NCBI RefSeq assembly: GCF_000420625.1
Contig: NZ_ATVH01000011.1
Location: 62,001 to 126,000 of the forward strand
Direction of reading: 5' to 3'
Source: Fodinicurvata sediminis DSM 21159
GTDB taxonomy: Bacteria; Pseudomonadota; Alphaproteobacteria; Kiloniellales; DSM-21159
Length of the DNA: 64,000 bases
Part shown: piece after piece, positions 4,996 through 56,279 of the stretch
Numbering within the stretch: the stretch's first letter is position 1
How the letters are laid out: each line of letters begins with the position of its first letter
Made by a program: the position numbers and the translations under genes
The notes under the pieces: generated by a model
What the model saw: the letters and a program-made list of their open reading frames with translations, nothing else
The model's database searches: none
What the model was told of the DNA's origin: nothing

Positions 4996-6213
4996 ATGCA
5001 GTTCCTAACCGGCATCGGTGATTTCGTAATCCCGTTCCTGATCATTCTGACCGTTCTAGTCTTTGTGCATGAACTGGGCCACTATCTTGTGGCTAGGTGG
5101 TGCGGCGTGCGTATCGATGCCTTTTCCATTGGCTTCGGGCCGGAATTGTTCGGCTGGAATGACCGTCGTGGCACACGCTGGAAGTTCAGCGCAATTCCGC
5201 TTGGTGGTTACGTCAAGATGTTTGGCGATGCTGACGTGACCAGCCGTCCAGCCCCCAGCGGTTCTCCCGAGAGCGCAGAGCAGCAGAATTCAGCCCAGGA
5301 TCAGGGTGTTGCAACCGGTGAAGAAACGGGAGGCTGGGCCGGAGGGCGTGAGCGCCCGCTGACGGCCGAGGAGAAGGCTGTCTCCTTTCATCACAAATCA
5401 CTGATGCAACGCACTTGGATTGTTTCGGCCGGCCCCTTGGCGAATTTCCTGTTTGCTCTGGTCGTACTGGCGGGTTTTTTCTTTACGTTCGGACAGCCGA
5501 CCACACCGCCCGTGATCGGACAGGTTCTGCCCGAGAGCGCTGCAGAAGAGGCCGGTCTTCAGGGCGGTGATCGCATAGTGGCCATCAATGGCTCCGAAGT
5601 GGATCGTTTCGAGCAGATTCAGCGTGCAGTGCAATTGAATCTCTCTGCCCCCCTGGATATGGAAGTTGCCCGTAATGGTCAGAGCCTGATCCTTACGGTG
5701 ACGCCTGAAATTGTTGAAGCCGAGGATGGCTTTGGCAATGTCCAGGAGGTTGCCCGACTTGGTATCACGGCCAGTGGAACCGAGTTTGTGCGCTATGGCC
5801 CGCTGCAATCCACCTGGATGGCAGCAGAGGAAACTGTAAGCCTTGTCGGGGCAACCATGAAGGCGCTCGGACAAATCATAACGGGATCTCGCAGTACCGA
5901 TGAACTGGGCGGCCCGGTACGAATTGCCGAGATGTCTGGGTATGTGGCGGACACGGGTATGGTGTCTGTCCTTTGGTTCATGGCAGTGCTTTCAATAAAC
6001 CTTGGCCTAATCAATCTCTTTCCTGTACCCATGCTGGATGGGGGGCACTTGCTGTTTTATGCGTTTGAAGCTGTGCGCGGGCGTCCCCTGGGCGAGAGGG
6101 CACAGGAAATCGGTTTCAGAATCGGCCTGGGGCTAGTACTGACACTCTTTGTATTCGTGACTTGGAACGATCTGGTAAGATTGCGTGTATTCGATTTTCT
6201 TGCAGGCTCGTGA
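4996..6213 (+). CDS. rseP: Site-2 intramembrane zinc metalloprotease (RseP/EcfE)
   Basis: Inner-membrane protease that cuts anti-sigma factors and signal-peptide remnants within the membrane. The zinc site HELGH is at residues 25-29 in the first membrane segment, and the third ligand motif LDG is at about 347-349. PDZ sequences occupy the periplasmic part. A hydrophilic Glu/Gly-rich insert of about 50 residues (near 78-128) precedes the second membrane segment. The ATG at 4996 is chosen because AAGGAG at 4978-4983 is 12 nt upstream; the TTG at 4984 directly abuts that site. bamA follows after 23 nt. Confidence 0.95.
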   Translation: MQFLTGIGDFVIPFLIILTVLVFVHELGHYLVARWCGVRIDAFSIGFGPELFGWNDRRGTRWKFSAIPLGGYVKMFGDADVTSRPAPSGSPESAEQQNSAQDQGVATGEETGGWAGGRERPLTAEEKAVSFHHKSLMQRTWIVSAGPLANFLFALVVLAGFFFTFGQPTTPPVIGQVLPESAAEEAGLQGGDRIVAINGSEVDRFEQIQRAVQLNLSAPLDMEVARNGQSLILTVTPEIVEAEDGFGNVQEVARLGITASGTEFVRYGPLQSTWMAAEETVSLVGATMKALGQIITGSRSTDELGGPVRIAEMSGYVADTGMVSVLWFMAVLSINLGLINLFPVPMLDGGHLLFYAFEAVRGRPLGERAQEIGFRIGLGLVLTLFVFVTWNDLVRLRVFDFLAGS

Positions 6214-6236
6214 CGCAGCAGGGGACAGGCGACAGC

Positions 6237-8561
6237 ATGCAGATCAGGCTGCCGAATTCGGCTAGGGAGGTTTTCGTGGGGCTCAGAACTCTATTCTTCG
6301 GGGGGATGCTGGTCTTTGCCATGGCCCTGACCGGTATGCCGAACAGTACAGAGGCACAATCCATCAATGAAGGCGGGATCATTGAGGAGATTCGCATTGA
6401 AGGAACGCAACGTGTCGATCCTGCGTCCGTACAGAGTTACATGCAGGTTGAGCCGGGCGATGAGTTTGAGCCGCTGACTCTCGACCAGTCACTGAAGAAC
6501 CTCTATGATTCCGGGTTGTTCGAAGACGTGACCCTGCGTCGGGATGGCAGCGCTCTGATCGTTACGGTTTCAGAGAATCCCATGATCAATCGACTGGCGT
6601 TCGAAGGAAACCAGCGTATTGATGACGAGGAACTGCAAAGGGAAGTTCAATTGCGCCCCCGCGTGGTCTACACGCAAACCAAGGTTCAAAACGATGTGGA
6701 GCGCATTCAGGACATCTATCGCAGCCAGGGGCGGTTTGCGGCCACCGTCGAACCCAAGATCATCGAATTGGATCAGAACAGGGTCGATCTCGTCTACGAG
6801 ATCGATGAAGGTCCCCTGACGGGTGTGGAATCCATCAACTTTGTGGGCAATGATGCCTTTTCCGGTTCCACTCTGCGGGGGGAAATCTCGACACGGGAAT
6901 CGGCCTGGTATCGTTTCCTGTCCAGTTCAGACGTTTATGATCCGGACCGACTTGCCTTTGATCGAGAGCTCTTGCGACGCTTTTATCTTGAGGAAGGCTA
7001 TGCCGACTTCCAGGTGCTTTCCACCAATGCCGAACTCAATCCCGACCGCTCAGGCTTCATCATAACCTTCACGATCGAGGAGGGGCCACGTTTCCGTTTC
7101 GGCGAGATCTCGCTCGAGAGCAATCTGCGGGACCTGGAACCGGATGCAGTGGAAGGCCTGCTCGATGCGCGGGAAGGGGATTGGTATGATGCCACGACCG
7201 TAGAAGATGATGTCCAGGAGTTGACCGATCGTATTGGCGAAATGGGCTATGCCTTTGTGGACGTTCAGCCACGCGCCAATACCGACAGGGAGAACGAGGT
7301 CGTCAATATTGTTTATGAAATTGGCGAGGGGCCGCGGATCTTCGTCGAGCGCATCGATATTGAAGGCAATGTACGCACAGTTGATGAAGTCATACGGCGC
7401 GAGTTCCGTCTGGCGGAAGGCGATGCCTTCAATCGGGCCCGCGTGCGGAGGTCCAGACAGCGCATCGAGGATCTGGGATTCTTCCGAACTGTTGAAATGG
7501 ATACGGAAGACGGTTCCGCCGAAGACCGGGTCATAATCAAGACCAGTGTTGAAGAGCAGCCCACAGGTGATCTGACATTTGGTGCTGGTTTTTCGACGGC
7601 CGTTGGGCCCTTGGGGAGTATCCAGTTGCGCGAGCGCAATCTTCTTGGACAGGGTCAGGATCTGCGTGCGTCCGTCAGCCTTGGCGGTACGGGGTCCGAA
7701 TTCAATCTGGGTTTCACGGAACCCTACTTCATGGATCGGCCCATATCCGCGGGTTTTGATATTTTCCGGATTACACGCGATCGCAGCGAGTTCTCTTTCA
7801 CGGAAGAGCGTAGAGGCGGAAGCTTGCGTGCCGGCTATGATCTGACCGAGCACACCCGGAATGTCTGGCGCTATACGCTTGAGCGTCGTGAGATCGATGA
7901 TGTGGATGACGATGCCCCCATTCAGGCCAAACGCGAGGAAGGAGCCTCCTGGCGTTCCAGCATCAGCCAATCCCTGATTTGGGATAAGCGCAACAGCACA
8001 CGCAATCCGACAGAAGGTTTCATTGCCGATCTGACAACCCAGTTCACAGGCCTTGGAGGGAATGTACGTTTCCTCAGAGGCAGTGTAGGCGGCCGCTACT
8101 ACTTCCCGCTGGGGGATGAATGGACGCTGTCCTTGGGAGCACGTGGTGGCACGATGCATGGCCTGGGCCAGGATACGCGCATCAGTGACCGCTTTCAGCT
8201 TGGTGCCGATGAGTTCAGGGGCTTTGATTATGGTGGCATCGGTCCAAGGGATGACAGCAGTCGGGATCCACTTGGGGGCAACAACTTCGCCAAGGGAACT
8301 GTCGAGTTTATCTTTCCGTTGGGGCTTCCAGATGAGTTTGACGTGCGGGGTCGTCTGTTTTCCGACTTCGGCACTGTCTGGGGTGTGGACGATGACACGG
8401 ATGTCATCGGAGACAACAGGTCAATCCGTGTTTCCGTTGGCCCGGGTGTGTCATGGGATTCACCGCTTGGCATGATCAATCTAGACCTTGGTTTCCCCAT
8501 CCAAAAGGAAAGTTACGACAAGACCCAGATATTCAACTTCAGTTTTGGGACACAGTTCTGA
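6237..8561 (+). CDS. bamA: Outer-membrane protein assembly factor BamA
   Basis: Core of the BAM complex that folds beta-barrel proteins into the outer membrane. The 774-residue precursor has an N-terminal signal peptide (about residues 1-41, ending near STEAQS), five POTRA repeats (for example GTQRVDPASVQSYM, EGNQRIDDEELQ, EGNVRTVDEVIRREF) and a C-terminal Omp85 barrel beginning near residue 430. The last residues NFSFGTQF end in an aromatic, as expected for a barrel signal. The start at 6237 puts the signal peptide at the N-terminus; the longer frame from 6162 overlaps rseP. Confidence 0.97.
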   Translation: MQIRLPNSAREVFVGLRTLFFGGMLVFAMALTGMPNSTEAQSINEGGIIEEIRIEGTQRVDPASVQSYMQVEPGDEFEPLTLDQSLKNLYDSGLFEDVTLRRDGSALIVTVSENPMINRLAFEGNQRIDDEELQREVQLRPRVVYTQTKVQNDVERIQDIYRSQGRFAATVEPKIIELDQNRVDLVYEIDEGPLTGVESINFVGNDAFSGSTLRGEISTRESAWYRFLSSSDVYDPDRLAFDRELLRRFYLEEGYADFQVLSTNAELNPDRSGFIITFTIEEGPRFRFGEISLESNLRDLEPDAVEGLLDAREGDWYDATTVEDDVQELTDRIGEMGYAFVDVQPRANTDRENEVVNIVYEIGEGPRIFVERIDIEGNVRTVDEVIRREFRLAEGDAFNRARVRRSRQRIEDLGFFRTVEMDTEDGSAEDRVIIKTSVEEQPTGDLTFGAGFSTAVGPLGSIQLRERNLLGQGQDLRASVSLGGTGSEFNLGFTEPYFMDRPISAGFDIFRITRDRSEFSFTEERRGGSLRAGYDLTEHTRNVWRYTLERREIDDVDDDAPIQAKREEGASWRSSISQSLIWDKRNSTRNPTEGFIADLTTQFTGLGGNVRFLRGSVGGRYYFPLGDEWTLSLGARGGTMHGLGQDTRISDRFQLGADEFRGFDYGGIGPRDDSSRDPLGGNNFAKGTVEFIFPLGLPDEFDVRGRLFSDFGTVWGVDDDTDVIGDNRSIRVSVGPGVSWDSPLGMINLDLGFPIQKESYDKTQIFNFSFGTQF

Positions 8562-8562
8562 T

Positions 8563-9147
8563 ATGACCTTTCGAAACGCTTTCATCGCCGGATTTGTCGC
8601 ATCCGCCATGACAGTCATGGCAAGCTTGGGCATGGCGCCACAGGCCACGGCACAGGATGAAATGCCAACGCCAAAGATCCTTGTTGTCGACCTGCAGCAG
8701 GTCATGCGCGAAGCTGAGGCCATGAAGGGCTTGCGTGAAGAAGCCGAAGGGTTGCGCTCGGAAATGGAGCAGGAGCTTCAGCAACAGGAACAGTCCTTGC
8801 GCGAGGAAGATGAAGCCCTGTCGCGGCAACGCACGGTATTGTCCCAGGATGCTTTCGAGGAAAAGCGCGGGCAGTTGGAGCAGAAGTTCAGCCAGTTCCA
8901 ATCCTCGGCGAACACGGAAATGGGTCGACTGGAAGAAGCTTATTCGGAAGCCGTGGCTGAAGTCGAGTTCACCATCGTTAGAATTTCGGATGATATTGCT
9001 GGAGAGCGTGGTGCAAACATGGTTATTCCCAAGTCCACGCTTCTGCTTGTTGGCGATGATTTCGAGATTACCGAAGAAGTCACGACGCGCTTGAATGAGG
9101 AACTTCCAAGCGTCTCGTTGTCCTTGGAAGAGAGTGATTCAGAGTAA
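8563..9147 (+). CDS. OmpH/Skp family periplasmic chaperone
   Basis: Periplasmic holdase for unfolded outer-membrane proteins, acting with BamA. 194 residues: signal peptide ending near PQATAQDE, then a short strand KILVVDLQQVM and a long charged coiled coil (about residues 45-125, rich in Glu, Gln and Arg), the tentacles of the Skp fold. The C-terminal strand motif MVIPKSTLLLV matches the family. Starts 1 nt after bamA, so co-transcribed. In most relatives lpxD comes next; here it is missing. Confidence 0.92.
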   Translation: MTFRNAFIAGFVASAMTVMASLGMAPQATAQDEMPTPKILVVDLQQVMREAEAMKGLREEAEGLRSEMEQELQQQEQSLREEDEALSRQRTVLSQDAFEEKRGQLEQKFSQFQSSANTEMGRLEEAYSEAVAEVEFTIVRISDDIAGERGANMVIPKSTLLLVGDDFEITEEVTTRLNEELPSVSLSLEESDSE

Positions 9148-9170
9148 CAAACGCACACCACCAAACAGGC

Positions 9171-9189
9171 ACCCGTTAAAGTAACGGGT
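9171..9189 (+). other. Short perfect hairpin between ompH and fabZ
   Basis: ACCCGTTA (9171-9178) pairs with TAACGGGT (9182-9189) around the loop AAG. There is no T run, so it is a weak terminator or pause site at best. It stands where lpxD is expected. Confidence 0.4.
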
Positions 9190-9227
9190 TGTCCTCTATA
9201 CAATTTCAAGTTATGGGATTTTCTGGC

Positions 9228-9719
9228 ATGACGGCCTCAAGGAAATCTGGCTCTGAAACCTCCAAGGAAAAGCCTGAACTCCGTTTTGACGTGATGGAAG
9301 TGATGCGGATGATACCGCACCGCTATCCCATGTTGCTGGTGGACCGTATCCTGGAACTGGAACGGGACAAGGATGCTCTCGGCCTGAAGAACGTCACCAT
9401 AAACGAGGGTTTCTTCCAAGGACACTTTCCCCGACAACCCGTCATGCCGGGTGTGCTGATCATAGAAGCGATGGCGCAAACGGCAGCTGTCCTTGTCGTT
9501 GAGACGCTTGAAGGGGCAGCGGCCGGTAAACTGGTCTACTTCATGTCAGTGGAACAAGCGCGCTTCAGACGGCCGGTCGTTCCGGGAGATCAACTGCACA
9601 TTCATGTGAGCAAGGTTCGCAACCGAGGACCGGTCTGGAAATTTGAAGGCGTGGTTCGCGTGGACGACCAGATTGCAGCCGAGGCCGGTTTCAGCGCCAT
9701 GATACGTGAGGACGAATAG
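9228..9719 (+). CDS. fabZ: 3-hydroxyacyl-[ACP] dehydratase
   Basis: Dehydrates 3-hydroxyacyl-ACP in type II fatty acid synthesis. Hot-dog fold, 163 residues from ATG 9228, with the catalytic His66 in GHFPRQPVMPG and Glu80 in LIIEAMAQ. The N-terminal motif MIPHRYPMLLVDR is present. ATG 9213 is an alternative start. FabZ is usually embedded between lpxD and lpxA; both are absent around it, leaving only this gene of the block. Confidence 0.95.
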   Translation: MTASRKSGSETSKEKPELRFDVMEVMRMIPHRYPMLLVDRILELERDKDALGLKNVTINEGFFQGHFPRQPVMPGVLIIEAMAQTAAVLVVETLEGAAAGKLVYFMSVEQARFRRPVVPGDQLHIHVSKVRNRGPVWKFEGVVRVDDQIAAEAGFSAMIREDE

Positions 9720-9760
9720 CAGGTCTTCCTGGGTTCTTCATATGGACCGAAGTCCAAACG

Positions 9761-9788
9761 GAAAAGGGCGCCATCTGGCGCCCTTTTC
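9761..9788. terminator. Bidirectional terminator between convergent fabZ and gltA
   Basis: Perfect 12-bp stem GAAAAGGGCGCC (9761-9772) with GGCGCCCTTTTC (9777-9788), loop ATCT. A/T tracts on both sides allow it to end fabZ transcripts on the plus strand and gltA transcripts on the minus strand. Confidence 0.85.
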
Positions 9789-9819
9789 ACTTTTCGGCTC
9801 AATGGCAGACCGACAGGGG

Positions 9820-11139
9820 TCAGCTCTTGAAGGACTCCGGAAGTTCACGCCCTGTGTTGCCCTGATAGAGCTGGCGTGGCCGGCTGATGCGGTGATTGGG
9901 ATCTTCGACCATTTCGTTCCACTGGGCAATCCAGCCCACTGTACGGGCCACTGCAAAGAGAGCGGTGAACATGGAAGTGGGAAAGCCCATGGCTTTGAGA
10001 ATAATGCCTGAATAGAAGTCCACATTCGGGAAGAGCTTCTTCTCGACAAAGAAATCATCCTCCAGGGCGATGCGCTCAAGTTCCATTGCCAGATCGAGCA
10101 ACGGTTCCTGCTTGCGGATGCCGAGTTCATCCAAGACCTCATGGCAGCTTTTCTGCATGACCTTGGCGCGTGGATCATAATTCTTGTATACGCGGTGACC
10201 GAAGCCCATGAGACGGAACGGATCGTTCTTGTCCTTGGCGCGTTCGATAAACTCCGGAATACGGTCCTTTGAGCCGATCTCCTGCAGCATGCGAAGGACC
10301 GCTTCGTTGGCGCCCCCATGGGCGGGCCCCCACAGAGATGCGATGCCGGATGCAATGCAGGCAAAAGGATTGGCGCCTGAAGATCCGGCGAGCCTTACCG
10401 TAGAGGTCGAGGCATTCTGTTCATGATCCGCATGCAGGATGAAGATGCGGTCCATGGCACGTGCCAGTGTGGGACTGATCTTGTATTCCTCTGCCGGAAC
10501 GGAAAAGGTCATGTTCAGGAAGTTTTCCGCGTAGCTCAAGTCATTGCGCGGATAAACGAAAGGCTGCCCCACGGAATACTTGTAAGCCATGGCGGCAATG
10601 GTCGGCATCTTCGCGATCATGCGATGCGATGCGACCATGCGCTGGTGAGGGTCCGTGATGTCTGTTGAATCGTGATAGAAGGCTGAAAGGGCGCCAACCA
10701 CACCCACCATGACCGCCATGGGATGCGAGTCACGGCGGAAACCCCGGAAAAAATAGATCATCTGCTCGTGGAGCATGGTGTGATAGGTGATGTCATGCTC
10801 GAACTTCGTCTTCTGTTCGGCATTGGGCAGGTCGCCGTTCAGGAGCAGGTGACAGACATCCATGAAATCGCAGTGCTCGGCCAGATCCTCGATCCGGTAG
10901 CCGCGATGCATAAGGATACCTTTGTCGCCGTCGATATAGGTGATCTCGGAATCACAGGAGGCTGTCGAGGTGAAGCCGGGATCGTATGTGAACATCCCCG
11001 TTTCCCCGTACAGCTTGCGTATGTCTATGACACGCGGGCCGACAGTGCCATCGATGACCGGCAGTTCCCACTGCTGACCTGATTCGTTGTCGGTCAGGGT
11101 GACCGAATTCTGGCTTTTATCACTGTTCGCGTTGGTCAT
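9820..11139 (-). CDS. gltA: Citrate synthase
   Basis: Condenses oxaloacetate and acetyl-CoA to citrate, the entry step of the TCA cycle. 439 residues, type II (hexameric, Gram-negative) length. Motifs include [26 protein letters not shown] (active-site His) and [15 protein letters not shown]. An AAGGA ribosome site precedes the ATG at 11139 on the minus strand. In related genomes gltA follows lpxB; here it faces fabZ across a terminator. Confidence 0.98.
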
Positions 11140-11222: not shown

Positions 11223-12641
11223 TCAATTGGCAGAAATGCTAAAAGTTTCCACCTGTTCGCGCGCATCGTTCAGCCGGCCCAGGGTTTCCTCGCGGCCTAG
11301 AATCGCGGCGACTTCGAAGATGCCGGGCGAAATACTGGAACCGGTAAGTGCTGCACGCAATGGCTGTGCAACAGCACCCAGCTTGAGTTCACGCTGTTCA
11401 GATAGCGTTCTGATACTGTTCTCCAGTTCGTTTTCGCTCCAGTTTTCGACTTTCTCCAGTATTTCCTTGATGTCTGCGAGCAGGTCCTTGCCCCCTTTGG
11501 CAATCAGTTTCTGGGCCTTTTCTTCGAAAACCAGGGGACGATCCGAGACATAAAACTGCCCCAGGTCGGCAAGCTCTTTCATAGTCTTGGCCCGTGGCTT
11601 CAAACCGGCCATTCCAGCCAGCAAACGCTTACGGCCAGCAGTTGTAACCTCGCCATAGAAATCCGTGCAGAGAATATCGACCAGACGCTGATCCTCCGCC
11701 TCTCTGAGATAATGACCATTGAGATTGCTGAGCTTTGCAAAGTCAAAGCGTGCGGCGGAACGTCCAACTCCATCCAGGTCGAACCACGCGATGGCTTGAT
11801 CCGTGGAAATCACTTCGTCATCACCATGTCCCCATCCTAGGCGAAGTAGGTAGTTTCGAAGCGCTTCGGGCAAGAATCCCATTTCCCTGTACGTCTCCAC
11901 GCCAAGGGCACCGTGTCGTTTCGACATCTTTGCCCCGTCTGGGCCGTGTATCAGGGGGATATGCGCAAAGCTCGGAGCTTCCCATCCAATTGCTTCATAG
12001 AGGAGGGTTTGCCGAAAGGCGTTGGTGAGATGATCGTCTCCCCTTATGACATGCGTGATGCCCATGTCATGGTCATCGACAACCACGGAGAGCATGTAGG
12101 TGGGCGATCCATTTGCACGCAGCAGAACCATGTCGTCCAGCTGTTCGTTGGCAACCCGAACGGATCCCTGGACTTCGTCCTTGATCAAGGTTTCCCCTTC
12201 TTGAGGGGCTTTCAAACGAATAACCGGATCCACGCCTTCCGGTGCTTCTGAAGGGTCCCGATCGCGCCAGCGCCCATCATAGCGCATGGGACGGCCCTCT
12301 TTCTTCGCCGTCTGCCGCATCTCGTCCAGTTCTTCTTGAGAGGCGTAACAGTAGTAGGCTTGTCCAGCCTCAAGCAGTGCACGGGCAATTTCGGCATGGC
12401 GTTCTGCGCGCGTTGATTGGAAAACGGTTTCTTCGTCCCAATCCAGCCCCAGCCATTCGAGGCCTTGCACGATGGCCTGGATTGCCTCGTCGGTCGATCT
12501 CTTGCGGTCCGTGTCCTCTATACGCAGTCGAAAGACACCACCGTGGTGTCGTGCGTAAAGCCAGTTGAACAAGGCCGTGCGCGCTCCACCAATATGCAGG
12601 AAGCCGGTGGGCGAGGGGGCAAAGCGTGTCACCACTGTCAT
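11223..12641 (-). CDS. gltX: Glutamyl-tRNA synthetase
   Basis: Class I synthetase charging tRNA-Glu; in alphaproteobacteria it may be non-discriminating and also charge tRNA-Gln for transamidation. 472 residues. The HIGH-type motif is in [21 protein letters not shown] at the N-terminus, split here as [11 protein letters not shown]; the KMSKR loop is [10 protein letters not shown]. The start at 12641 places FAPSPTG at residue 6, as in the family; the longer frame to 12713 adds an unrelated tail. A cognate tRNA-Glu gene is at 51.5 kb. Confidence 0.96.
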
Positions 12642-12781
12642 GCGTTTATCCGAGATCCTTTTCTCAGTGCAAGGCAAAGCTGCTGAAGTTGTTGCGTTGG
12701 CGCTGTCTAGCACATCTCTCCTGATGACGCACGCGGCAGCATAGCCGGTGTTATGTCGGTGGTGCAGAGATGGAAATACAT

Positions 12782-51673: not shown

Positions 51674-53350
51674 ATGCACGTAACTCGGACGGAATCCGGC
51701 AGCTGGTTATTTCAGCGTCGGATTCCGCTCCCTCTTCAAATAATTCTCGGCAAATCACCGCTTCGGCTAGCTTTACCCGCCGTTAATGCGTCGCATGCAA
51801 AAAAGCTTGCGAGACGGCTTTCTGCCGTTTTCGACGAGCTTTGTGATGAGCTGATGGGTAGAAGAGGGGACATGGATAAAACCGAGGTTGAGCAGCTACG
51901 TGAAGAGATTCGGGCTGAGATGCGGTCATATTTACGCAAAGAACTGCGCGGAATTCTCGAGCGCTCCGGCGTCGATGTGTCTAAAGATTCTCCGGAATAT
52001 CAAGATGTTATGGAAATGAGCGGTGAGATCGCTGCAAAGTCGGAAGACCGTTTCTATCAGCATTATAGCGAGATGCTCCGACGCCGACCTTATCGGATTC
52101 CGTTTCATATTCAGCAAGAACTCAGTGATCTGCGTCAGCCCGGCGCAGCGGAGCGGGCGCTATATGAAACACAGGAGAATATCAAGGCGATGCATGCAGG
52201 TCTTGTAGACCGCATGAAAGATGAAATTGCCGAGATTCCTGCGCCTTCTGGCGGCAGAGGGCAGGAAGAGAAAGAGTCTGTGCCGCTCCTTTCTGAAGCG
52301 CTTGAAGAGTATTATGCATATCAACGTGTGCAGCTTAATAACAGCAAGTATATTCGCTACGACGCTCCAAAAGCTTTGAGTGCTTTTCTAGAAATCTGCG
52401 GCGACCGCCCCCTTGATGATTATTATGTTGCGGATTTGCGTGAATATGTGAAAGCATTAGCGCATCTTCCGGCCAATTATCAGAAGATTCGTTCTTTTCG
52501 CGGCTTGAGCATTGCGGAAACATCGAAGAAGAATGCGTCAATGAAGAGGCCGTATCAGACGATTTCCACTTCTACGATAGGTCGTTCGTATAAGAATCCA
52601 GTGATCACGGCATTCAAGTATATGCTGCCGCAACATCGCTTGCCGCCAGTGTTCGACGGACTATCTGTCAGGCCGCCAAAATCGGCTCGGCAGTCGCCAA
52701 AACGCTCGGCCCTGACTCCGGCTGAGATCGTGCAAATCCTGTCATACACAGTCGATCACGCGAAGCGGCGGGACGATATGTGGATGATGATCTTAGGTGT
52801 CTTCACTGGCGCTCGGATCGGAGAATTGGCATATCTCCAACCGCGCGATCTCAAGCTCTCAGAAGAGGGTGGCAGCTATTATCTGTATCTGTCGACGCTG
52901 ATTACAGTGCATGATTCCGAAGAAGAACGGCAGCTCAAGACGGCACAATCCGTGCGGCGGATCCCGATACATCAGACTCTCGTTGATGCGGGATTCATCG
53001 ACATGGTGAAGCGGCGGAAGAAGTCGAACTGGCTGTTTCCACATCTGCATAAGCAGATCAAGGATCCAGCGGCCACAGCGAGCAAGCGAATGGCTCGCCT
53101 CCTTGATGGCGCAGGGATTCCAAAGGGTCAGCAGAAGGTCTTTCACTCATTACGGCACAGCGCGAAGGATTGGCTGCGTCAGCATCTCGATCGGCGCGAT
53201 GTAGACGTGATTCTCGGACATGCCCATGAGAGCGTAGCCGAAGAGTATGGACCCGACGGGATTCCGGAAGACCGCATGCATCTCATGAGAGATGCGCCGC
53301 TTCCGAAGAAGATTGCCGAAGTCTGGCCACCACTGAAGCCGCTCAGGTGA
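51674..53350 (+). CDS. Tyrosine recombinase / integrase
   Basis: 558-residue phage-type integrase. The N-terminal region is of the DUF6538 kind (ESGSWLFQRRIPLPL), followed by a SAM-like core-binding domain and the catalytic domain. Visible catalytic residues are Arg in GARIGE, His-x-x-Arg in HSLRH (491-494), His in ILGHAHES, and the Tyr in EEYGPDG near residue 525. It sits just after tRNA-Glu, the typical arrangement for integration at a tRNA 3' end. Codon usage is plainer than the core genes. Confidence 0.93.
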   Translation: MHVTRTESGSWLFQRRIPLPLQIILGKSPLRLALPAVNASHAKKLARRLSAVFDELCDELMGRRGDMDKTEVEQLREEIRAEMRSYLRKELRGILERSGVDVSKDSPEYQDVMEMSGEIAAKSEDRFYQHYSEMLRRRPYRIPFHIQQELSDLRQPGAAERALYETQENIKAMHAGLVDRMKDEIAEIPAPSGGRGQEEKESVPLLSEALEEYYAYQRVQLNNSKYIRYDAPKALSAFLEICGDRPLDDYYVADLREYVKALAHLPANYQKIRSFRGLSIAETSKKNASMKRPYQTISTSTIGRSYKNPVITAFKYMLPQHRLPPVFDGLSVRPPKSARQSPKRSALTPAEIVQILSYTVDHAKRRDDMWMMILGVFTGARIGELAYLQPRDLKLSEEGGSYYLYLSTLITVHDSEEERQLKTAQSVRRIPIHQTLVDAGFIDMVKRRKKSNWLFPHLHKQIKDPAATASKRMARLLDGAGIPKGQQKVFHSLRHSAKDWLRQHLDRRDVDVILGHAHESVAEEYGPDGIPEDRMHLMRDAPLPKKIAEVWPPLKPLR

Positions 53351-53371
53351 TCTTCGAGCCGCTATTGTTGG

Positions 53372-53866
53372 CTATGGTTCTGTGCTGCTGGCGGGCGGGA
53401 TGAGTTCTAGTTCAAGGCCGTCCAACTCGTTCCTGAGCCTTTCGCAGCTCCAGTTACCTTCAACGGCTTGGGTAACTTTGTTCTGGTATTCTTTATAATT
53501 TTCACACAATTGCTTGAGCTCTGCTTGTCTTCCCGTATTTTTTGAATATATGCCAAGAGCCAAGATAAAAAGAGCTGTATAGTGATCATACCTGAGAGAT
53601 TTGTATGATTTTGGTAGGCCACACTCGCTCACTTTTTGATCGAAGTCTTTTATTGTGATGAAATTTGAGACAATTGATACAAATGGTTGATCGTGAATGT
53701 CTTCAAATCCGCTGGAAATATTTACTTGTAATCCATCTATCATATCGTAATATTCAATTTTCTCCTCAAGACATTCATATATCCTGTTCCCTCGTTTTGT
53801 GTCCTCCAGTCCCTCATCTTCAATAATCCGATTTAGGATAGTTACTAGTTCCGGGCTTGCCGTCAT
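53372..53866 (-). CDS. Unknown AT-rich protein
   Basis: 164 residues; I do not recognise a family. Predominantly helical and acidic, with ILNRIIEDEGLEDTKRGNRIYECLEEKIEYYDM at the N-terminus and a Leu-rich C-terminus (RLRNELDGLELELIPP). It has lower GC than its neighbours, so it looks acquired. It is convergent with the integrase and divergent from the Vsr gene. Its place beside a restriction cassette suggests a defence or phage-related role, but nothing in the sequence proves it. Confidence 0.6.
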   Translation of the reverse strand: MTASPELVTILNRIIEDEGLEDTKRGNRIYECLEEKIEYYDMIDGLQVNISSGFEDIHDQPFVSIVSNFITIKDFDQKVSECGLPKSYKSLRYDHYTALFILALGIYSKNTGRQAELKQLCENYKEYQNKVTQAVEGNWSCERLRNELDGLELELIPPASSTEP

Positions 53867-53992
53867 TGTACTTCCTAACGTCGCACTACCATTTTGAATT
53901 GTGTGTAAAGCTTATCACAAGTAGTGGACGCGGCAAGTATACCCCGGATATACTTAATCTCACTGCCGCTTGCTCAAAAAGGATGTCTCTTC

Positions 53993-54409
53993 ATGGACAC
54001 TCTATCGCGTGAGGAAAGAAGCAAGCGGATGTCGCGCATTAAAGGCAAGGACACCAAGCCCGAGATGCGCGTGCGCCGCATGGTTCACGCGCTTGGATAT
54101 CGCTACCGGCTGCATCGAAGGGACTTGCCAGGCTGTCCCGACCTGGTGTTCCCCGGGCGCGGAAAGGTGATTTTCGTGAGCGGGTGCTTCTGGCACCGCC
54201 ACGAAGGGTGCCATCTCGCGCGCCTTCCGAAGTCACGAGAGGAATTCTGGAAAACGAAGCTGGAAAAGAATCGGGAACGTGATTTACGTAATCAGGAGGC
54301 CTTGGAGCGTGATGGCTGGGGCGTGCTGGTCATTTGGGAGTGCGAGACCAAACAAGACGCATCCCTTTCGCGCCGCATAATCGCGTTTCTAGACGGGGAG
54401 GACAGCTAA
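53993..54409 (+). CDS. vsr: Very short patch repair endonuclease
   Basis: Nicks next to T:G mismatches caused by deamination of 5-methylcytosine. 138 residues. Catalytic Asp50 in GCPDLVF and the His68/His70 region CFWHRHEGC are present. AAGGA precedes ATG 53993. Its stop overlaps the methyltransferase start by one base (54409), tying repair to methylation. Confidence 0.95.
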   Translation: MDTLSREERSKRMSRIKGKDTKPEMRVRRMVHALGYRYRLHRRDLPGCPDLVFPGRGKVIFVSGCFWHRHEGCHLARLPKSREEFWKTKLEKNRERDLRNQEALERDGWGVLVIWECETKQDASLSRRIIAFLDGEDS

Positions 54410-55638
54410 TGGACGCGCTTGAATTGTTCGCCGGTGCGGGCGGATTGGCAATGGGGGTATCTCTGGCGGGATTCCGGCCCTTGGGCGTGCTGGAGTGGGA
54501 TCGCTGGGCGTGTGACACCATTCGAGAGAACCAAGAGCGTGGTTATCCGCTTGTGCAGGATTGGCCCTTGGTGGAAGGGGATGTTCGCCGCTTCGACCTT
54601 TCGGGCATCCCGGAAGACATTGATCTGGTTTCCGGTGGTCCGCCCTGTCAGCCCTTCTCAATGGGGGGCAAGCATCGTTCTCACTCGGATCATCGCGACA
54701 TGTTCCCGGCAACCGCCGACGTGATCCGTCGAGTCAAGCCAAAGGCCTTTGTTGTCGAGAACGTCAAGGGCCTTACGCGGGAATCCTTCGCGAACTACTT
54801 TAACTATATCCTCCTTCAGCTTTCGTTCCCGGAGATAGCTCCACGCGACGGAGAGGACTGGATTGAGCACCTTGCTAGGCTAGAGCAGGAGAAGACATCG
54901 GGCTGTCACCATGGCTTGACCTATGATGTTGTATTCCGGGTCTTGAACGCCGCCAATTATGGCGTTCCCCAGCGCCGAGAGCGCGTCTTCATCGTTGGTT
55001 TTCGGAATGACTTGGGGATTCGCTGGAACTTTCCAACCGAAACGCATTCCCATGAAGCCCTGTTCGTGGATCAGTGGGTCACGGGGGATTATTGGGAACG
55101 TCACGAGGTGGCCCGAAAAGAACGCCCGGCGATGAACAGGACGACCGCGAACAAGGTCGAACGTCTACGGTCCAGAAACACGCCTCCCGACATGCTCCCG
55201 TGGCAAACGGTGCGTGATGCGCTCGTGGGATTGCCGGACCCCGAGAAATCACGCGGCATTCACCGAGATCATGTCTACCAGAAGGGGGCCCGGTCTTATC
55301 CGGGACACACGGGAAGCCCTCAGGACCTTCCCGCAAAAACCTTGAAGGCGGGCGATCATGGCGTTCCCGGCGGGGAAAACATGATGGTGAAGGCGGATGG
55401 CAGTGTTCGCTACTTCACGGTTAGAGAGAGCGCACGCCTACAAACATTTCCGGATGGCTACGTCTTTCACGGATCGTGGACAGAGACGATGCGCCAACTA
55501 GGCAATGCCGTTCCCGTGACCTTGGCGCATGTCGTTACATCGGCCGTCGCTGAAAAACTCGCCGGATTCCAACTTGAACGACTCGCCAAACGCGACGGAT
55601 CATCCGTGGATGAAATGACCGTCGCGGGGAACGCATGA
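54409..55638 (+). CDS. DNA (cytosine-5-)-methyltransferase
   Basis: C5-cytosine methyltransferase, 409 residues. Motif I ELFAGAGGLAMGVSLAG, motif IV with Cys80 in GGPPCQPFSMGG, motif VI VENVKG, motif VIII NYGVPQRRERVFIVG, and a C-terminal motif IX-X region RQLGNAVPVTLA. Overlaps vsr by 1 nt and the GIY-YIG gene by 4 nt. As the partner nuclease is Eco29kI-like, the target may be CCGCGG, but this is inference. Confidence 0.95.
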   Translation: MDALELFAGAGGLAMGVSLAGFRPLGVLEWDRWACDTIRENQERGYPLVQDWPLVEGDVRRFDLSGIPEDIDLVSGGPPCQPFSMGGKHRSHSDHRDMFPATADVIRRVKPKAFVVENVKGLTRESFANYFNYILLQLSFPEIAPRDGEDWIEHLARLEQEKTSGCHHGLTYDVVFRVLNAANYGVPQRRERVFIVGFRNDLGIRWNFPTETHSHEALFVDQWVTGDYWERHEVARKERPAMNRTTANKVERLRSRNTPPDMLPWQTVRDALVGLPDPEKSRGIHRDHVYQKGARSYPGHTGSPQDLPAKTLKAGDHGVPGGENMMVKADGSVRYFTVRESARLQTFPDGYVFHGSWTETMRQLGNAVPVTLAHVVTSAVAEKLAGFQLERLAKRDGSSVDEMTVAGNA

Positions 55639-56279
55639 GTTCACAAAAGCATTACAACCCTCTTGATAAACGGAATCTCGGCGCGAGTGTCGCGGAGGCT
55701 CTTCTAGAACGGGATCCTGTTCGGCTGGATGACCTCGAGTCCTTTGAGGGCGCTGGAGTGTACGCACTTTACTACACTGGCCCATTCGAGCCCTACCGGC
55801 CAATGGCCGAGCGTAACAAAGAAGGACGCTTCGAATGGCCCATTTACGTGGGCGAAGCCATGCCCAAGGGCTCGCGTAAAGGGACCGATAATCTGGATGA
55901 CCCTCCGGGAGCCGTCCTGTTCAAGCGCCTAAAGGACCATCGGAAAAGCATCCAGCAGGCGGAGAATCTGGAGACATGGGACTTCTTCTGCCGGTACCTC
56001 AGCGTTGAACAACACTTCATTTCGCTTGGCGAGGCCTTGTTGATCTCCAAATTCGCGCCGCTGTGGAATAAATTCATCGATGGCTTCGGGAATCACAATC
56101 CCGGGAAGGGAAGGCATGCCGGTCTTCGGCCAAGGTGGGATGTTTTACATCCCGGGCGCCCATGGACACTCAATCTTCAGGGTCGTCCCGAGACATACGA
56201 GCAGATTGTGGCCGAGATCGAAACCCATCTGCGTACGACCCCGATTCCCCGGCATCCCAAAATGATGACAGAGGAATAA
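55635..56279 (+). CDS. GIY-YIG restriction endonuclease (Eco29kI-like)
   Basis: 214 residues, the length of the Eco29kI type II enzyme. GIY-YIG core: GVYALYYTG (41-49) and PIYVGEA (69-75), the helix with VLFKRLKDHRKS, and Glu133 of the nuclease site in GEALLISKF. Eco29kI itself cuts CCGCGG; the specificity here is not certain. ATGA overlap with the methyltransferase. Confidence 0.88.
   Translation: MSSQKHYNPLDKRNLGASVAEALLERDPVRLDDLESFEGAGVYALYYTGPFEPYRPMAERNKEGRFEWPIYVGEAMPKGSRKGTDNLDDPPGAVLFKRLKDHRKSIQQAENLETWDFFCRYLSVEQHFISLGEALLISKFAPLWNKFIDGFGNHNPGKGRHAGLRPRWDVLHPGRPWTLNLQGRPETYEQIVAEIETHLRTTPIPRHPKMMTEE

Follow-up and report, generated by a model that had tools for sequence, protein, structure and literature searches.

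Vacant positions beside fabZ and the loss of lipid A genes

We analyzed a stretch of 64,000 nucleotides from Fodinicurvata sediminis DSM 21159 (the window), in which bamA, skp and fabZ face gltA and gltX on the opposite strand and the lpx genes of lipid A synthesis that flank fabZ in relatives are missing. Profile matches to all five products confirmed the gene order bamA-ompH-fabZ-gltA-gltX read from the sequence in an initial annotation, and with it the retention of BamA and Skp. The outer-membrane protein assembly factor gene bamA (6162..8561, +) matches TIGR03303 with 772 bits and encodes Omp85 and POTRA domains; the periplasmic chaperone gene skp/ompH (8563..9147, +) matches PF03938 with 64.6 bits (cut-off 32.4). 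The 3-hydroxyacyl-ACP (acyl carrier protein) dehydratase gene fabZ (+) runs from its ATG at 9228 to a stop ending at 9719; its product matches TIGR01750 with 193 bits (cut-off 155) and is 94% identical to FabZ of the sister species, Fodinicurvata fenggangensis DSM 21160. On the other side lie gltA for citrate synthase (9820..11139, -; TIGR01798, 773 bits) and gltX for glutamyl-tRNA synthetase (11223..12713, -; PF00749, 309 bits).

The gap between skp and fabZ measures 80 bp (9148..9227, +) and that between fabZ and gltA 100 bp (9720..9819, no strand assigned), too short to leave room for lpxD in the first or lpxA-lpxI-lpxB in the second. The lpx-positive relative G004, of the same family, carries lpxD and all three other genes at exactly these places, in the order bamA-skp-lpxD-fabZ-lpxA-lpxI-lpxB, a small gene, gltA (skp and lpxI being identified by eye). 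LpxD, LpxA and LpxB are found at the equivalent places in lpx-positive G003, where bamA and lpxD are only ~215 bp apart and hence enclose no skp. The initial annotation had also placed a hairpin on each side of fabZ. The strong, bidirectional terminator-like one toward gltA (9761-9788) stood, its 12-bp stem being much stronger than chance would give (z -4.97 on one strand and -4.30 on the other; 0/200 shuffles as good); a simple scan missed it, probably owing to the position of its A/T run inside the stem. The small hairpin on the skp side (9171-9189), compared within 81 nt of context, did not exceed chance (z -0.69; 41/200 shuffles as good).

Whole-genome searches of F. sediminis (G000; 3.69 Mb in 20 contigs, rated 100% complete) and of F. 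fenggangensis (G008) gave no match to LpxC, LpxB or WaaA. LpxD and LpxA were not found in either, and a joined LpxD-FabZ-LpxA query returned only FabZ in F. sediminis. This test covered LpxA, LpxB, LpxC, LpxD and WaaA. The same queries succeeded elsewhere among the 61 genomes of the window's order that we compared (LpxC in 45, LpxB in 46, WaaA in 45). Since five gene families are missing from a 100%-complete genome and from its sister species, the absence is a loss and not a relocation. Of the two alternatives in the initial annotation, genes that had moved or an organism without classical lipid A, the second is thus borne out. The genome-wide check proposed there turned out as that alternative predicts for lpxA, lpxC, lpxD, lpxB and waaA, while LptD, also on the list, is present. 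The gene fabZ itself survived the removal of the lpx genes around it, and the vacant positions on its two sides are a visible trace that losing lipid A synthesis has left in Fodinicurvata.

In 12 of the 61 genomes LpxC, LpxB and WaaA all went unmatched, and the matches listed included neither LpxD nor LpxA: G000, G008, G006, G007, G009, G010, G011, G025, G026, G027, G034 and G058 (hereafter lipid-A-less). Two of them are incomplete, G010 (88%, FabZ not found either) and G026 (81%), and G009 has one more match to the joined query, weaker than 1e-26 and outside the matches listed. In all ten lpx-minus loci inspected (every member of the twelve except G010 and G026), the order bamA, fabZ, gltA was kept without a match to LpxD, LpxA or LpxB. 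We dropped G028 (72% complete) and G029 (69%) from the counts, which left 12 lipid-A-less and 47 lipid-A-positive genomes. These two have serine palmitoyltransferase (Spt) and lower-scoring LpxC matches (233 and 220 bits, respectively), whereas LpxB, WaaA and LptF/G gave no match; perhaps they are at a different step in losing lipid A, or their assemblies have gaps. G015, an 81%-complete draft without LpxC, LpxB and WaaA, was rejected as lipid-A-less, as LpxD and LpxA flank its fabZ; G053 was counted as lipid-A-positive on LpxC and LpxB, its WaaA match being weak (2.3e-4).

A retained Lpt machine with two types of permease

Although lipid A synthesis is gone, the Lpt export machine has been kept with a swapped permease, which the initial annotation did not foresee. 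LptD was found in 60/61 genomes, including all 12 lipid-A-less ones, and LptC in 57/61, including 11 of the 12 (weakly in some). On contig C18 of F. sediminis we found a run kdsD-lptC-lptA-lptB-rpoN (rpoN by eye). Its pepA and lptD are 310 bp apart with neither lptF nor lptG between them; in G009, G034 and G058 the aligned parts of the two proteins are likewise separated by ~240 to 490 bp, vs 1.9 kb in lpx-positive G003, where lptG lies inside. The sole LptF/LptG pair of F. sediminis instead sits 2 kb from Spt. Its LptF2 passes TIGR04407, and its LptG2, with 216.6 bits, falls short of the TIGR04408 cut-off (240).

A maximum-likelihood tree of 66 LptF/LptG proteins separated an LptD-linked type 1 from a ceramide-cluster-linked type 2, both for LptF (support 100/100 for type 1, 99/93 for type 2) and for LptG (100/100 and 97/81), with a warning from the program about long branches where the types join. 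Type 1 in this tree was restricted to lipid-A-positive genomes, 15 of the 16 placed; from the sixteenth, G030, only the ceramide-cluster pair was put into the tree and its other pair was left out. All 11 lipid-A-less genomes typed (every one but G026; G007 through LptG alone) had type 2 and no other pair. The F. sediminis pair is of this type, and the canonical LptB2FG with type-1 LptF and LptG is therefore absent from its genome. The types also differ at diagnostic columns: Glu-Arg at E. coli LptF positions 29-30 was present in 18/18 type-2 and 0/15 type-1 proteins, and Arg at LptG position 180 in 19/19 and 0/14, respectively. E. coli LptG K34, which we take to be a lipopolysaccharide (LPS)-binding residue, was uninformative as a discriminator, since type-1 alphaproteobacterial LptG lacks it too.

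Copy numbers agree with the tree. Every lipid-A-less genome had two LptF/G matches, that is one pair (G058 has a third below the cut-off). The 17 lipid-A-positive genomes with a ceramide cluster had four matches in 14 cases, three in two and two in one, and 26 of the 30 lipid-A-positive genomes without such a cluster had two. Together, the copy counts and the tree indicate that lipid A and LptF1G1 disappear together while LptF2G2 stays.

The ceramide cluster and the probable cargo

The ceramide cluster of F. sediminis (L142; G000:C15:395000-414999) encodes an acyl-AMP ligase (NF006624, 780 bits), a CerR-like epimerase, an ACP, Spt, a protein without a Pfam match and a DAGK_cat protein. These are joined by LptG2, LptF2, a metallophosphoesterase, a nucleoside triphosphate (NTP) transferase, a GNAT (bCerS-like) protein, a fatty-acid hydroxylase and an acyltransferase of the LpxL/HtrB family. 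Spt reaches 633 bits with NF047599 (cut-off 500) and has an SPT as its best PDB match (1.4e-141); the epimerase, PP-binding and GNAT proteins are recognized by Pfam. The ceramide-kinase-like protein has a DAGK_cat domain (36.6 bits, cut-off 23.6) and no solved relative at 1e-5. The LpxL/HtrB-family 'lipid A acyltransferase' that ends the cluster (PF03279, 175 bits; L207:416-1501, +; also L209:2077-3054) has homologues in the clusters of G003, G005, G006, G008 and G011, and may acylate the sphingolipid. We applied the names CerR and bCerS by position and by analogy to the Caulobacter cluster, with no model behind them (PMC11324152).

Nine of the 12 lipid-A-less genomes carry the cluster, and eight have an Spt orthologue (at least 53% identical), G026 having a remainder at a contig end where Spt was not found. 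A strict rule that no lipid A means Spt is thereby rejected. The contrast with the lipid-A-positive genomes, 17 of 47 of which have the cluster when the weak matches in G036 and G037 (26-27% identical) are not counted, gives a Fisher p of 0.02, on which we place little weight because the genomes are related.

We propose that a ceramide-derived lipid has probably replaced lipid A in Fodinicurvata and is exported by LptB2-F2G2-C-A-D, the canonical lptF and lptG having been lost with lipid A. The gene content and the co-loss pattern are observed; from them we infer the cargo and its chemistry, the direction of transport and the position in the outer leaflet. Ceramide would be made at the inner membrane, then phosphorylated and modified by the cluster enzymes and perhaps further acylated by the LpxL-family enzyme. 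LptB2F2G2 would pick up the product and hand it over via LptC-LptA to LptD, and the lipid would stand in for LPS in the outer leaflet. The data thus suggest that sphingolipids now cover the Fodinicurvata outer membrane.

Three genomes complicate this proposal: G009 and G010, of the window's family, and G034, of another (completeness 100%, 88% and 99%). They lack the tested lipid A genes and keep LptD and LptC, and we found in them neither an Spt orthologue nor, at E<=1e-8, a bCerS-like, kinase-like, hydroxylase or CC_1161-position protein. Their type-2 LptF/LptG adjoin a gene of the ELM1 family (PF06258; L152, L153 and L154, respectively), which we take to belong to the GT-B clan. G009 and G010 also retain a sulfotransferase and a GT8-like gene (so named by eye, without a Pfam match). 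The extended ceramide clusters of G003, G005, G011 and G025 contain homologues of all three, and that of G027 homologues of ELM1 and GT8-like only. G009, G010 and G034 appear to descend from ceramide producers in which the backbone pathway was lost while the exporter and the head-group genes persisted. Tentatively, and at rather less than even odds, they may export a third, undescribed outer-membrane lipid via Lpt, which would make Lpt a general exporter whose cargo is set by the LptF/LptG module.

Several observations weigh against our proposal for Fodinicurvata. In these three genomes LptF2G2 occurs without ceramide genes, so it is not strictly tied to ceramide, and the 17 lipid-A-positive genomes with a cluster mean that having ceramide is not enough by itself to bring about lipid A loss. 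F. sediminis retains KdsD, an arabinose-5-phosphate isomerase of the Kdo-pathway type (SIS and CBS domains; L196:4529-5527), upstream of lptC-lptA-lptB, although the Kdo transferase WaaA is absent. It has a single LptC and, unlike Caulobacter, no second one in the ceramide cluster. Lastly, an LptF2 query at E<=1e-8 found no LptF homologue in Reyranella-type genomes, while it did find type-1 LptF in controls; the permease swap is accordingly shown only within the window's order.

The genomes with an ELM1-family gene beside LptF2G2 and no ceramide gene found also raise the possibility that the cargo is some other envelope glycolipid made by cluster neighbors (ELM1-family, GT8-like, sulfotransferase), with ceramide synthesis a separate matter; that G009 and G010 keep GT8-like and sulfotransferase genes with homologues in the extended ceramide clusters of relatives points the same way. 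We consider this unlikely for Fodinicurvata, whose cluster region has no ELM1, GT8-like or sulfotransferase match and whose ceramide genes directly surround LptF2G2. In Caulobacter, moreover, a phosphosphingolipid gene is described as linked by cofitness to CC_1156, a member of the LptF2/G2 pair (PMC11324152). An outer leaflet made mostly of phospholipid, with the Lpt remnant doing a minor or unrelated job, seems less probable still: F. sediminis still has LptA, LptB, LptC, LptD and F2G2, and LptD and an LptF/G pair occur in 12/12 lipid-A-less genomes, which would not be expected of a dispensable machine.

That the lpx genes were merely relocated, or fell into an assembly gap, is extremely improbable. 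The F. sediminis genome is indeed spread over 20 contigs, and draft relatives do show single-gene gaps: G018, G039 and G056 lack LpxC alone, with LpxB, LpxD, LpxA and WaaA all found. In Azospirillum-type loci lpxD does not adjoin fabZ, so this gene can by itself sit elsewhere. Fodinicurvata, however, jointly lacks all five families in both species, the same set is missing in ten other genomes, and the canonical lptF and lptG are missing as well. We favor export of a ceramide-derived lipid over all three alternatives.

Two side observations were made along the way. A weak WaaA-like match lies ~13-14 kb from Spt in six genomes (G002:C9:85616, G052:C15:814767, G053:C66:37950, G055:C125:75349, G056:C88:16913 and G057:C1:2286584), being the sole WaaA match of G053 and below the cut-off in G056; the protein is possibly a glycosyltransferase of the sphingolipid cluster. 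Within the window, positions 51674-56279 hold an integrase-like gene followed by look-alikes of a Vsr-type endonuclease, a C5 DNA methyltransferase and a restriction enzyme (by eye), a possible mobile restriction-modification island.

Recurrence across lineages and comparison with known systems

Of the 80 named FabZ loci examined, the top-scoring part of a longer list, 13 had no LpxD, LpxA or LpxB beside fabZ, some of them interrupted by contig ends. Seven of these are titled Reyranella or group with it in the tree described below, and one more is titled Enhydrobacter; others overlap the order-wide set (matching contig positions indicate that L082 is from G007 and L063 from G011, and L075 is apparently from G029). 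In the Azospirillum-type loci lpxD alone is displaced, with only a 24-30% cross-match to LpxA there. We searched 21 of 22 intended genomes, 13 with lpx-empty loci and eight lpx-positive controls. LpxC was absent from 11 of the 13, those of L075 and L128 having a 46%-identical match (for L075, a divergent LpxC measured against that of G004), and was present in 8/8 controls. An Spt orthologue (at least 53% identity) occurred in 13/13, three matched only in part, vs 1/8 controls. On a tree of BamA, GltA and FabZ (40 rows, 17 lpx-minus; a quick tree with support from the Shimodaira-Hasegawa-like approximate likelihood ratio test, SH-aLRT, only), the lpx state needs seven changes, at least five of them forced by supported branches, Reyranella included. 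We read the lpx-minus states as losses, given that the lpx genes have a constant location in the relatives that possess them. Lipid A loss has happened in several separate lineages.

The original report of Caulobacter lacking lipid A is said to be that of Zik in 2022. That strain is a laboratory mutant, whereas the Fodinicurvata-type loss is natural and has occurred in several lineages; evolution seems to have repeated the deletion, with lipid A gone, canonical LptF/G gone and the type-2 pair staying. The viability of Caulobacter without LPS is reported to depend partly on an anionic ceramide lipid, ceramide diphosphoglycerate (PMC12275187). The phosphosphingolipid cluster of Caulobacter crescentus, CC_1168-CC_1152, is described as containing aasR, cerR, acpR, spt, cerS, the ceramide kinase CC_1160 and LptC2/F2/G2, and its authors propose LptC2F2G2, untested by them, as the phosphosphingolipid carrier (PMC11324152). 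Fodinicurvata likewise has ceramide genes and an LptF2/LptG2 distinct from the canonical pair in one cluster, a likeness that we draw from the cluster description, the proteins not having been directly compared. Caulobacter keeps lipid A (PMC11324152), whereas Fodinicurvata lacks the tested lipid A genes, the canonical LptF/G and a second LptC. As recently as 2024, one group described a sphingolipid flippase or lipid transporter as not yet identified (PMC11087976); the co-loss pattern makes the question of sphingolipid transport directly testable.

In sphingomonads, sphingolipids functionally replace LPS (PMC11087976; PMC11324152), and a 2020 survey held that sphingolipids appear restricted to Sphingomonadales (PMC7179689). 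Fodinicurvata resembles this order in gene content, lacking the tested lipid A genes and having Spt and ceramide genes. Sphingomonadales is nevertheless another order, and in S. wittichii and Z. mobilis the sphingolipid genes are dispersed (PMC11324152), whereas in Fodinicurvata they form one cluster. Among the top-ranked literature matches, no title or abstract opening reported that Fodinicurvata or Reyranella has lost LPS. Sphingolipid-bearing bacteria without LPS, on the one hand, and a second LptF/G pair, on the other, were each known or proposed; as far as those titles and abstract openings show, what is new is their combination, with the canonical pair lost in several lineages outside Sphingomonadales. 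Natural LPS loss is thereby extended beyond that order to Fodinicurvata, Reyranella and others, and the Lpt machine is separated from LPS.
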